Part shown: piece after piece, positions 4,502 through 28,320 of the stretch
How the letters are laid out: each line of letters starts with the position of its first letter
Numbering within the stretch: the stretch's first letter is position 1
Virus record (IMG/VR): IMGVR_UViG_3300046028_002710
Coordinates: 1-42,190 of that record
Source of the DNA: a virus
Direction: 5' to 3' (one strand)
DNA length: 42,190 nt
The notes under the pieces: model-generated
Told to the model about the DNA's origin: nothing
What the model saw: the letters and a program-made list of their open reading frames with translations, nothing else
The model's database searches: none
Program-made: the position numbers and the translations under genes

Positions 4502-4900
4502 TTACAGAACAGTCCAAGTGAAAGTAGCAGCACCGGTACGAGTAAGATAACAAGTAACAGCAGAGGAAGCTGGGCAAGTTGCACGACCAGCAAGAGTAAC
4601 ACCAACACCAGCAGCAAAAGTACCTGCAAACGCAGCAATACTAGATACTGTGAATCCAACTGAGTCACCAATATCCATCTCTGGGAATGCAAGTGCAAAG
4701 TTAGCGCCAGTGTCGGTAGTCAGAACGCGACCAGCACTAAAACTGGTATACATTACAACACCACCAGCAACTTGTGCAGCAGTGATAGTTGCAGCAGCAT
4801 CAGCAGCAACAGTGGAGATAACAGGATTATCCCAGTTGTCACCTTGACGCATATTGCGAGAAAGACCAGAATCCTGAATGATTAGACGTTTAAAGCCCAT
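4502..4900 (-). CDS. Possible head decoration protein
   Basis: This 132-residue protein lies directly upstream of the capsid gene in the late transcript. After a polar start (MGFKRLIIQDSGLSRNMRQG) it is almost entirely Ala, Gly, Thr and Val in short beta-strand-like runs (AAATITAAQVAGGVVMYTSF, AGTFAAGVGVTLAGRA), which suits a small beta-barrel. A clear TAGGAAT sits 5-6 bases before the ATG. I recognise no family by sequence. Position and composition suggest a capsid-decorating or stabilising protein; a minor structural protein is the alternative. Confidence 0.5.
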   Translation of the reverse strand: MGFKRLIIQDSGLSRNMRQGDNWDNPVISTVAADAAATITAAQVAGGVVMYTSFSAGRVLTTDTGANFALAFPEMDIGDSVGFTVSSIAAFAGTFAAGVGVTLAGRATCPASSAVTCYLTRTGAATFTWTVL

Positions 4901-4945
4901 GATATATTCCTAAGAAGTAAGAGAAAACAAAAGAAAGTTGTGAGA

Positions 4946-5629
4946 TTAACCAAAGAACTTATCCCAATCTTCGCCCACAGGAACTGCTGGACCCTTTTTC
5001 TGGGGAACTGCAGCTGATGCAAACTTGCTGAGATAATCGCCTGCCATATCCCGTAACTCATTCACAGTTGCATTGGGGTACTTAACTGAGAACTGAGACT
5101 GCAGTGCTTCCATAATAGGAGCTGCTGCTGGGTGCTGTAAGGCTGGATTGCTTTCGCGGATGGAGTCAGAAACTTGATGTTTCTTAATTTGCGAAGGGAG
5201 CCGGGAATCCAGACCTTCTTGAAATTTAGCTAGAGCTGCTTCCACAATCTTAGTAGATGCGAAAGAGGATTGTGCGTAAGAGCGTTGTGATACATCGTTC
5301 AATGCTGCCATGAATGCTTGTGCTGCTTCTGGTCCACCTGATGTAATCTTAGCAAGCATTTCTGGTGAAATAGATTTAGCAAAATCTACTTTCCTAGCTG
5401 CGTCGAGCATCTTAGCTGGATCGGCACCTGCAAACATATTAGCTGGAAGTGTTCCGTCGATGTTTGGTGTAGCTGAAGGTTCCCACAGAGCACTAAAACT
5501 ATCGAGCGGGGAGACAGGAGCTGCTGGAGTTGCTGGAACAGCTGGAGCTACCGGTGCAGGAGCTACTGGAGTTGGAACAGCTCCATCAGCAGATGATGTG
5601 GAACCAAAAATATTAGAGAAAAAAGCCAT
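4946..5629 (-). CDS. Scaffold-like protein
   Basis: This 227-residue protein has a low-complexity Pro/Ala/Val linker at about residues 18-45 and a largely helical remainder (AAQAFMAALNDVSQRSYAQS, TKIVEAALAKFQEGLDSRL). It ends in an acidic-aromatic tip, VGEDWDKFFG. A helical, charged protein just upstream of the capsid gene is the usual place for a scaffold. There is no protease motif. AGGAAT lies about 6 bases before the ATG. A minor head protein is an alternative. Confidence 0.55.
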   Translation of the reverse strand: MAFFSNIFGSTSSADGAVPTPVAPAPVAPAVPATPAAPVSPLDSFSALWEPSATPNIDGTLPANMFAGADPAKMLDAARKVDFAKSISPEMLAKITSGGPEAAQAFMAALNDVSQRSYAQSSFASTKIVEAALAKFQEGLDSRLPSQIKKHQVSDSIRESNPALQHPAAAPIMEALQSQFSVKYPNATVNELRDMAGDYLSKFASAAVPQKKGPAVPVGEDWDKFFG

Positions 5630-11581: not shown

Positions 11582-11605
11582 ATTCAAACAACATAGAATG
11601 CATGG

Positions 11606-11654
11606 TCTGGCATTCTGGCTGCTGTGACACAATGCCAGAATGCCAGAATGCCAG
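11606..11654. repeat. Strong hairpin of 8-bp TTCTGGCA repeats
   Basis: TCTGGCATTCTGGC (11606-11619) is an exact inverted copy of GCCAGAATGCCAGA (11634-11647), with a 14-base loop. A second overlapping copy of the right arm at 11642-11654 gives an alternative pairing register. Nine G follow directly, so it is not an ordinary intrinsic terminator. Confidence 0.75.
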
Positions 11655-11962
11655 AGGGGGGGGGAACGGGTGTTTAGGTGTGGTGTAAATACAACACTAT
11701 ACACTTAGCACTAATTCCCCCACTAATACTAGTTCCTTATCTATAGGGGATTAATATTAGTGTATGTATAAGGGATATATAAGGGTATATATAAGGTATA
11801 TAGATATATAGTATTAGTACCCTTATGTTTTATTGTTTAAATTTTGACAGGGGTAAACTCTATGCTAAGAAAGCTTATGTTATCTACTCTCTCACTCTCT
11901 CACACATCTATATTAGGTGACATGCATCTTAGGGCGCCGTGCCTATTGACACACCATACGGG

Positions 11963-11979
11963 TTCTGGCATTCTGGCAT
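11963..11979. repeat. Distant copy of the TTCTGGCA tandem
   Basis: TTCTGGCATTCTGGCAT repeats the left arm of the 11606 hairpin in the same orientation about 350 bases away, so the two repeat clusters bracket the A+T-rich core. Confidence 0.7.
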
Positions 11980-12102
11980 ATTGGCTGGCGTGCCAAATCG
12001 ACAGACCAGACAACAATTTTATATTTTCTTATGAGTTTCAAAAGAGCTCATAAATCAAGTGTAATCTAATCTCCCGAATCATTAACCTAAAAGGAAATTT
12101 CT

Positions 12103-16709: not shown

Positions 16710-16891
16710 TCTTATAATATCTGGGGAGACATAACAGGCATCTAAATTTATTTTTATCTTATCTCTGGAAGGGGTTGACAACCGCCCCACCTTATGAGAC
16801 ACTTCAATCACTGCGAAACATAACCCCGGATCGCAGATTAACCCAGACAATACTGTCTACTTTCTTTTTTCTTTTTCTTAGGATATTTTAT
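16710..16891. promoter_or_regulatory. Structured leader before the 214-residue gene
   Basis: This 182-base spacer has no gene. It contains a hairpin GGGGTT-GAC-AACC-(G)-CCCC near 16771-16788 that includes a TTGACA, a CTGCG...CGCAG pair near 16814-16835, and AGACA...TGTCT followed by a long pyrimidine tract (CTTTCTTTTTTCTTTTTC) up to the AGGA ribosome site. The last hairpin plus pyrimidines could act as a weak terminator or attenuator. No -10 at normal spacing follows TTGACA. Confidence 0.4.
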
Positions 16892-17536
16892 ATGAACGAA
16901 ACAACCACTCCAGTCCGCGTTAATTTTGACAACAAGCTTGATTTTAAATCTGCTAAGTTTGGTTTTCGCGAAGTTACTGATAAAGAAACTGGCGTAAAAA
17001 CCAAACGTGCTACAGTTGAATTGGACAAACTGCCTGTCCCAAGTGTTGAAGGAATTGTTGCAATTCTGGAAACTGGTGGCAAAGCTTTGGATCTCTTGCT
17101 CGAAGCTGTCTCTGATATTATTGTGCAACGTGCCCGCGATGTTATCAATGATACAGAAACTGTAACTACTGAGAACTTTGATTATTCTACTTGCGATTGG
17201 AATACAATTGCTAATCTGGAAAAAGAAGATCGTCGCTCTGGTATCTCCAAAGAAACTTGGGAAGATTTTGCAGCAGACTATGTGGAAGTTATGCCTGCTG
17301 TTTCTGGTACTTCTAAAGAACAGTCTGCTAATGCAGCTAAAATCTTTGCAGGTAAGTTTGCTTCCATCAAATCTAAGAAAGATGTTATCGCAAAACTCAA
17401 ACTGCGTTTGGCAATGTATGCAGAACATTCACCCAAAGCTGCTGAGTTTGCTGAGTGCATTGACTTCCTGTTTAAGAAAGCAGACAAGCTGATCCAAGCT
17501 AAGGAAGAATCTCTGGAAGACAATCTGGGATTGTAA
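16892..17536 (+). CDS. Unknown early protein, possible paralogue of the 12103 gene product
   Basis: This 214-residue protein starts at the ATG at 16892 (MNETTTPVRVNFDNKLDFKS) behind AGGATATTTTAT. A longer TTG frame from 16775 would read through the structured leader and is unlikely. It has a beta-rich N-terminal 55 residues, helical middle segments (VEGIVAILETGGKALDLLLE), Trp-containing DWNTIANLEKEDRR, and a helical end finishing EESLEDNLGL. Its layout and tail match the 216-residue protein. It is flanked by structured spacers on both sides and uses more C- and G-ending codons than its neighbours, which can go with high expression. Function is unknown; an abundant DNA-associated protein is one possibility. 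Confidence 0.65.
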   Translation: MNETTTPVRVNFDNKLDFKSAKFGFREVTDKETGVKTKRATVELDKLPVPSVEGIVAILETGGKALDLLLEAVSDIIVQRARDVINDTETVTTENFDYSTCDWNTIANLEKEDRRSGISKETWEDFAADYVEVMPAVSGTSKEQSANAAKIFAGKFASIKSKKDVIAKLKLRLAMYAEHSPKAAEFAECIDFLFKKADKLIQAKEESLEDNLGL

Positions 17537-17646
17537 TCACCCACCTCACTATTCTATGACAGGCTGTATGCCTTGGATTTAGTGGGTTGACATCCTGAGT
17601 ATGATGTAAAACTGCTCGCTTTCCCCCCCCTAAAGATTTTAAAGAT

Positions 17647-17720
17647 AAGAACATTGACTGGTAACTAGGTTCCCTCCTTTTTCCTAGATCAAAGCAGAAA
17701 CTCAATGTTCTTTTCTTTTG
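17647..17720 (+). ncRNA. Candidate structured RNA or large terminator
   Basis: AAGAACATTGA (17647-17657) pairs perfectly over 11 bp with TCAATGTTCTT (17702-17712). Inside, CTAGG (17665-17669) pairs with CCTAG (17683-17687). The outer stem runs into TTCTTTT, so a rightward transcript would end in a U-rich tail. It may simply terminate the 214-residue gene's message or be the 3' end of a small RNA. The stem is long and A+U-rich for a standard intrinsic terminator. Confidence 0.45.
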
Positions 17721-17728
17721 AATCTCAC

Positions 17729-17841
17729 AAATACATTAATTACCCTCTGAGCAGTCTGTAAGCTAGACACGCAGTGCGGTAAGGGACTCTGATCAAGTTA
17801 CTCAATTAGGAAATGAATTGAGTGGGGTAATTAATGTATTT
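17729..17841 (+). ncRNA. Candidate structured RNA closed by a 17-bp inverted repeat
   Basis: AAATACATTAATTACCC (17729-17745) and GGGTAATTAATGTATTT (17825-17841) are exact complements separated by 79 bases. The enclosed DNA holds a perfect 8-bp hairpin, ACTCAATT (17800-17807) with AATTGAGT (17816-17823), stacked next to the closing helix, and a weaker GTCT...AGAC loop. The result resembles a multi-branch RNA. A cruciform DNA site or a protein-binding palindrome is the alternative. No known RNA family is recognised, and strand is assumed from the flanking genes. Confidence 0.4.
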
Positions 17842-17880
17842 TCCTGTGTCCCTACCACGTTTAGTTAGGATTTCCTGAGC

Positions 17881-18204
17881 ATGAACCTAAACTGCTCAAC
17901 CCACCACAATCTCTCTAATCTCTCTGATCTCTCTAACGTCTCTAATGTATTTGTTATGCGCCAGTATGAACCTGTATGGAATCAGATAAAAGAAACAGGA
18001 ATGTGTGAAATATCAGCACACAAGGCATACCATCGTCGTATTATTAAAGCTTTGTGGAAAGAAAAACATATGGATCTTGCATTCAAATTAGAGTGCACTG
18101 AAATGTGTCCACCAATTAGATGCATAACATACACAAAAGTAACAGGATCAGTCATTAAATTTGTAATGATTCGTAAGCCCCTAATCACATTAGATTCAAT
18201 ATAG
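17881..18204 (+). CDS. Hypothetical protein with an N-terminal NLS-type repeat
   Basis: This 107-residue frame starts at the ATG at 17881 with AGGA about 10 bases upstream. Residues 10-23 are made by a 9-bp tandem DNA repeat (LSNLSDLSNVSN). An internal ATG at 17956 (MRQYEPVWNQIKETGMCEIS) would skip the repeat and may be the older start. The body is basic, with an HTH-like look (CEISAHKAYHRRIIKALWKE) and five Cys. No family is recognised; a small nucleic-acid-binding protein is possible. Confidence 0.5.
   Translation: MNLNCSTHHNLSNLSDLSNVSNVFVMRQYEPVWNQIKETGMCEISAHKAYHRRIIKALWKEKHMDLAFKLECTEMCPPIRCITYTKVTGSVIKFVMIRKPLITLDSI
17908..17948. repeat. Four 9-bp units within a coding start
   Basis: AATCTCTCT, AATCTCTCT, GATCTCTCT and AACGTCTCT run in tandem, followed by AATGT. 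They keep frame and encode Asn/Asp-Leu/Val-Ser triplets at the start of the 107-residue protein, so copy changes would not shift the frame. Confidence 0.8.
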
Positions 18205-28270: not shown

Positions 28271-28320
28271 AAAAGCCCCCAATAAGATTCACAACTAAGT
28301 GTTTCCTGTGGGGGCTTTTT
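28271..28320. terminator. Bidirectional terminator at the convergence point
   Basis: AAAAGCCCCC (28271-28280) pairs with GGGGGCTTTT (28310-28319). The stem gives a T-run on both strands, so it can end the rightward early unit (last stop 28240) and the leftward late unit (last stop 28350). CACA and TGTG in the loop may extend the pairing. Confidence 0.9.

Follow-up and report, generated by a model that had tools for sequence, protein, structure and literature searches.

What is encoded in a long spacer among the replication genes of an uncultured phage, where an earlier reading of the letters (the sequence-only reading) had noticed a pair of large structured elements? The window analysed here is the whole 42,190-base virus record IMGVR_UViG_3300046028_002710. 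Its + strand carries genes for a PolA-type polymerase, a primase, a Dda-like helicase and an exonuclease, and its − strand carries the head genes. The best polymerase hits in isolated phages are only distant (24–35% identity) and include those of Aeromonas phage P5, EBPR podovirus 3, Polaromonas phage Tiera and Pseudomonas phage 119X. Two further intergenic regions of the window contain recognizable features. Between divergent gene blocks, positions 11600–12000 hold direct and inverted copies of AATGCCAG/ATTCTGGC together with AT-rich TATATAAGGG arrays, a candidate replication origin or promoter region; between convergent genes, a GCCCCCA..TGGGGGC hairpin followed by a T-run (28271–28319) is a probable bidirectional terminator.

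The spacer is bordered on the left by a + strand gene (16775–17536), found in the ORF list and conserved in the alignment of relatives, with the conserved start probably at 16892. Searches of Pfam and PHROG with its product gave no match, and the AlphaFold model is of low confidence (mean pLDDT 58). An SSB identity for the upstream genes generally was considered and dropped, as the window's family has neither a match nor a good model and the gp2.5-like protein is found only in the gene of locus L089, unrelated to that of the window. On the right, a conserved + strand gene (17956–18204) encodes a small basic protein of 82 aa with a confident AlphaFold model (pLDDT 90); a fold search with it gave no significant match and a weak resemblance to IF3-C/SpoVS-like folds. 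The spacer had been put at 344 bases, ending at an ATG at 17881; because the conserved downstream gene begins only at 17956, its true length is 419 nt. It also contains two pseudoknots, designated PK-A, which lie outside the stretch that the sequence-only reading had described.

Element 1, hereafter motif B, occupies positions 17636–17723 of the + strand, as delimited by a covariance-model match and the covariation of 25 members. The 11-bp stem with a nested hairpin that had been reported is exact (17647–17657 pairs with 17702–17712) and forms the perfect inner part of a longer helix P1 (17636–17657 with 17702–17723). What had been taken for a U-rich tail (UUCUUUUCUUUU) is thus not single-stranded; it is the 3′ strand of this longer, interrupted lower stem. 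The element has a folding z-score of −3.9, with none of 200 dinucleotide shuffles folding equally well; folded together with element 2, the value is −4.35, again equalled by 0 of 200 shuffles. The remark that there is far more pairing here than a terminator needs holds for the structured element. No terminator-like site was called at 17.6–17.85 kb, and since the U-rich stretch is paired within P1 and covaries, element 1 is not an intrinsic terminator; the likely terminator of the window genome at 28271–28319 looks quite unlike it.

The first relatives were located via the neighbouring gene and the polymerase, and in them the same spacer contained the same unpaired letters with different stems. 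A pattern scan of viral contigs then yielded 25 distinct members, after removal of three coding-region look-alikes. Across these members 90.7% of cells are paired, and changes on both sides occur at 30 of the 33 pairs, with all four Watson–Crick pairs present at many P1 positions. The compensatory changes that the sequence-only reading had looked for in relatives are present for element 1: there are 275 double-change cells against 91 in shuffled alignments, a number reached in 0 of 500 shuffles, although the counts for P1 are biased upward because P1 pairing was one of the acceptance criteria for members. The inner hairpin P2, which was no selection criterion, pairs in 87% of cells, and when the partner is shifted by one to three bases the pairing score of the motif falls from 0.83 to 0.17 or less. 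We regard it as almost certain from this comparison that element 1 is a real, strongly conserved structured RNA that folds from the coding strand.

The same alignment bears on an older suggestion, that of a cruciform DNA site. A long inverted repeat present once per genome among replication genes could indeed be a DNA element, whether a cruciform, a replication origin or a recombination site. However, 26 G-T and only 9 A-C oppositions stand in P1 on the + strand, which argues that one strand folds, namely the +, which is sense for the flanking genes; moreover, a better origin candidate lies at ~11.6–12.0 kb (three copies of AATGCCAG and AT-rich arrays). The cruciform is therefore disfavoured, and we consider a DNA element of any of these kinds very improbable.

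Element 2 (17729–17841, + strand) consists of a 17-bp closing helix, a multi-branched interior and an 8-bp hairpin. Both parts had been read accurately: the 17-bp perfect inverted repeat is exact (17729–17745 with 17825–17841), as is the enclosed 8-bp perfect hairpin (ACTCAATT at 17800–17807 and AATTGAGT at 17816–17823), which stands one base from the closing helix. No other perfect inverted repeat within 140 nt is as long anywhere in the 42-kb window, whereas block-shuffled windows gave at most 12 bp, and the folding z-score is −4.0 (0 of 200 dinucleotide shuffles fold equally well). The arm sequence was found elsewhere only in contigs of the same species, apart from single isolated words in L001 and L273. 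Being confined to one species, element 2 has no covariation or other comparative support, so that the description of the two structures as a pair of equal standing does not hold: element 1 has relatives outside the window's species, unlike element 2. The latter may be an accessory hairpin, like the ordinary hairpins found beside motif B in several other loci.

The structure of motif B can be written as P1 – CUGGUAA – P2 – (A/G)UC(A/U)A(A/U)G CAG AAA(U/C) – P1′, where P1 usually has 17–24 bp and P2 is variable among members. In the window, the 5′ core CUGGUAA (17658–17664, + strand) is identical to that of all other members (25/25); it is followed on the same strand by the P2 hairpin CTAGG/CCTAG (17665–17688), with an apical loop CCUCCUU (17673–17679) and then one unpaired purine, and by the conserved 3′ core UC(A/U)A(A/U)G-CAG-AAAY (17689–17701), in which CAG pairs with CUG and AAAY forms a bulge. 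The window thus shows the invariant core, the P1 and P2 pairing and the set distances of the family, and cmsearch scores it at 63.1 bits (E 2.8e-14), the window itself being among the sequences from which the model was built. The invariance of the core is partly built into the search pattern; when four core positions were left free in a further scan, no new core variants appeared.

Comparison with known RNAs agreed with the earlier statement that the structure matches none of them, the window having no Rfam 15 match at the gathering score. Six loci including motif B gave no Rfam 15 match with E up to 5, and the covariance models of known self-cleaving ribozymes (hammerhead, twister, pistol, hatchet and others) were without a match. 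A literature search, a text search being an unreliable way of finding sequences, returned no description of motif B or PK-A. Because no nearest known system shares its structure, motif B is filed as a new RNA family; as judged from these sequence comparisons, it is one without an entry in Rfam 15.

In small ribozymes, a set of invariant nucleotides, unpaired or fixed, usually adjoins helices whose sequence is free. Motif B, with ~17 such nucleotides beside helices of this kind, has the same appearance, it lies as a single copy between phage genes, and no phage protein co-occurs with it across 14 phage records, so that a host factor or the RNA itself would suffice for its action. Motif B could accordingly represent a new class of small self-cleaving ribozyme, or some other machine made of RNA only, its invariant internal loop serving as a catalytic core that would cut the polycistronic mRNA behind a stop codon, beside the PK-A pseudoknots shaping the message ends. 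We consider this unlikely: no Rfam ribozyme family matches, a P1 of the usual length exceeds what small ribozymes need, and the pattern shows no readable cleavage site.

The apical loop of P2 raises a different possibility. Loops of the CCUCC type occur in six of the eight short-loop members, despite P2 stems that are mostly different, and together with the conserved core and the single copy this would suit a trans-acting small RNA whose C-rich loop pairs to Shine–Dalgarno sequences. But a C-rich loop is no universal trait of the family, since it is confined to short-loop members and mostly missing from long-loop ones; there is also no promoter excess in the region and no terminator after the element. 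A small RNA of this kind therefore appears quite unlikely. Of the roles offered by the sequence-only reading, a phage small RNA in general and a host-directed decoy are both conceivable.

The two pseudoknots of the spacer flank this arrangement. PK-A copy 1 (17590–17618, + strand), just upstream of element 1, is an H-type pseudoknot with stem A ACATC/GATGT, stem B TGAGTA/TGCTCG and loop 3 AAAAC. The weaker copy 2 (17871–17898, + strand), downstream of element 2, has a perfect stem B (TGAGCA/TGCTCA), three of four stem A pairs and the loop 3 CTAAAC. The general pattern comprises a stem A of 4–5 bp, C, stem B UGRNCA/UGNYCA, Y and a loop NNAAAC, the conserved letters being CCUGAGCA..AAACUGCUCA. 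A strict descriptor found 146 distinct instances in the loci examined against 4 in a wrong-polarity control. A less biased pattern, fixing only the unpaired letters, one stem A base and the stem B ends, gave at least 124 distinct matches, a number below the true abundance; among the 124 listed, the full stem A is present in 100 (16 expected by shuffling) and both free stem B pairs in 122.

The position of PK-A is equally characteristic. Among the same 124 listed matches, 94 begin no more than 40 nt 3′ of the stop of a long ORF; the stops are mostly TAA, and the offset has a sharp minimum of 5 nt and is typically 5–15 nt. A readthrough or frameshift signal was considered and rejected: for the 94 instances behind stops, each of the three frames mostly continues only a short way past the stop, so that PK-A is not a recoding signal. 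PK-A occurs in very many phage contigs, with up to several copies per genome (L281–L398, L452–L456), and also in cultured phages, namely Mycobacterium phage Labelle, Paracoccus phage ParMal1 and cyanophages; its start lies ~5–10 nt behind the annotated stop in five phages that are isolated or named.

The gene 32 leaders of phages T4 and T2 and the preQ1-I RNA are compact H-type pseudoknots with two short stems, a 1-nt first loop and an A-rich third loop. PK-A resembles them in each of these traits but stands just behind stop codons instead of in leaders, and it has no Rfam match in the tested loci, where four PK-A-rich ones gave only tRNA/tmRNA and chance-level matches. A second covarying pseudoknot, motif C (N4-UUU-N5-UU-N4′-..AAAA..-N5′), was seen at L001:1768–1800, L003:4722–4755, L006:4831–4860, L007:4780–4809 and L014:268–297; it replaces PK-A before motif B in L003, L006, L007 and L014, whereas L001 has no motif B.

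Motif B has a recurrent genomic setting in the replication-gene region. In nearly all members P1 starts 31–170 nt 3′ of a stop codon, the exceptions being L016, where a small ORF intervenes, and L136, where P1 lies at the stop codon itself; two members are too close to a contig end for this spacing to be read. The motif is usually preceded by a stop-proximal PK-A, by its look-alike motif C or by an ordinary hairpin, and ordinary hairpins adjoin it in L003, L006, L007, L019, L020, L115, L124 and L142. The upstream genes of L089 and L136 encode a gp2.5-like ssDNA-binding protein and a Sak4-like protein, respectively. At the equivalent site, plain intrinsic terminators are present in several relatives that are more distant, which marks it as a point of transcript punctuation. 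Two neighbouring arrangements were also observed. In L005, an HNH-type homing endonuclease-like ORF (4807–5274) lies directly behind motif B and is followed by the intact small gene, whose first codons persist as a short truncated frame. In L009, in the spacer behind the homologue of gene 16775, the sequence AGCTA..GTCATTA is common to the loops of two hairpins, perhaps another repeated RNA element.

Evidence for and against a role in translation comes from the downstream side. The ATG of the next gene falls within the P1 foot in L004, L014, L031 and L091 and is base-paired in L014, no Shine–Dalgarno sequence is visible before the small downstream gene in the window or in the relatives read, and the encoded protein is small and basic. 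A translational switch could therefore be imagined, in which P1 hides the start codon or stand-by site of this gene, perhaps bound by the protein. In most members, however, including the window, the start lies tens of bases 3′ of motif B, the downstream gene belongs to a different family in L089, L115, L124, L136 and L142, and the small gene is retained in phages without motif B. As the downstream gene varies between phage groups, motif B is not tied to one regulated gene, and we find the switch rather unlikely.

Where present, motif B occurs in one copy per genome according to the covariance model, which recovered it clearly in 10 of 27 records and as one weak match (E 0.06). It is absent from close relatives (e.g., L002 and L021) and is hence dispensable. 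In four isolated relatives (Aeromonas phage P5, EBPR podovirus 3, Polaromonas phage Tiera and part of Pseudomonas phage 119X) the model gave chance-level matches only. A search of bacterial genomes gave at least 119 pattern matches; among those listed, P1 never exceeds 6 bp, and none of these is genuine. As far as seen, motif B appears to be a phage element that is gained and lost, all its carriers to date being uncultured phages.

Its occurrence as a single sense-strand copy in a long operon, with no phage protein needed, recalls the put RNA of phage HK022, an RNA of ~70 nt with two stems that is located near early promoters and contains an RNA triplex in stem I (PMC9378689). Like put, motif B would be a phage RNA acting without a phage protein, and a pseudoknot with a bulged hairpin is a plausible ligand of RNA polymerase, so that a put-like antiterminator or pause-control RNA, binding the host polymerase during transcription, can be envisaged. 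In contrast to put as described, which is a short two-stem RNA near early promoters (PMC9378689), motif B consists of one long helix interrupted by a single invariant internal loop, lies behind a stop codon ~5.5 kb into the operon and is far from the presumed promoter. This possibility thus seems distinctly improbable.

We tentatively favour the reading that motif B is a cis-acting mRNA punctuation element, either processed or blocking exonucleases. It would act on its own transcript, in the spacer behind the stop codon of a replication-gene transcript. A host double-strand nuclease, e.g., RNase III, would cleave motif B, together with the preceding pseudoknot or hairpin, at a set position, or motif B would alternatively block exonucleases; the 3′ end of the upstream gene's mRNA would become defined and stable, and the downstream message would acquire a new 5′ end. 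The role of the invariant loop would be to position the cut or the host nuclease, or to bind a factor, and element 2 may reinforce the barrier in the window's species alone. Covariation, the stop-proximal position, the preceding pseudoknot or hairpin, the terminators at the equivalent site in distant relatives, the changing downstream gene and the lack of a partner protein support this reading. Against it stand the invariant core of ~17 nt, which exceeds what RNase III requires, the occurrence of motif B about once per genome with absence from close relatives, and the fact that the sole described RNase III-like precedents differ in sequence.

Among these precedents is the sib site of phage lambda, a hairpin behind a gene that controls the upstream message (retroregulation). 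RNase III cleaves the R1.1 RNA of phage T7 early mRNA at just one phosphodiester (PMC4858673). Motif B resembles both in being an internal-loop hairpin between genes of a phage transcript, and it has the irregular double helix between genes expected of R1.1-type signals, a feature that is necessary and not distinguishing. It differs from them in its longer, covarying P1 and its fixed core. To our knowledge, neither the T7 processing signals nor lambda sib have a family-wide invariant loop of the kind seen in motif B. In bacteria, a structured RNA behind a stop codon has been described as highly unusual by Weinberg et al., who cite phage precedent for upstream-gene control (PMC2864571). The L17 downstream element and other bacterial 3′-UTR motifs share with motif B a conserved structured RNA behind the stop codon; the structure, host range and upstream gene of motif B are different from those of the L17 element, and no Rfam family matches. 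The role of motif B is probably a variation on one already described.

The analysis adds to phage biology a structured RNA family that Rfam 15 does not list and that combines an invariant core with very strong covariation. It also adds a pseudoknot, PK-A, which very many phages carry just behind stop codons, often in several copies per genome, and which is possibly the more important of the two findings. If motif B and PK-A define or protect mRNA ends, they would represent an RNA-based punctuation of phage transcripts, and the occurrence of PK-A in cultured phages makes this idea testable in laboratory phages.
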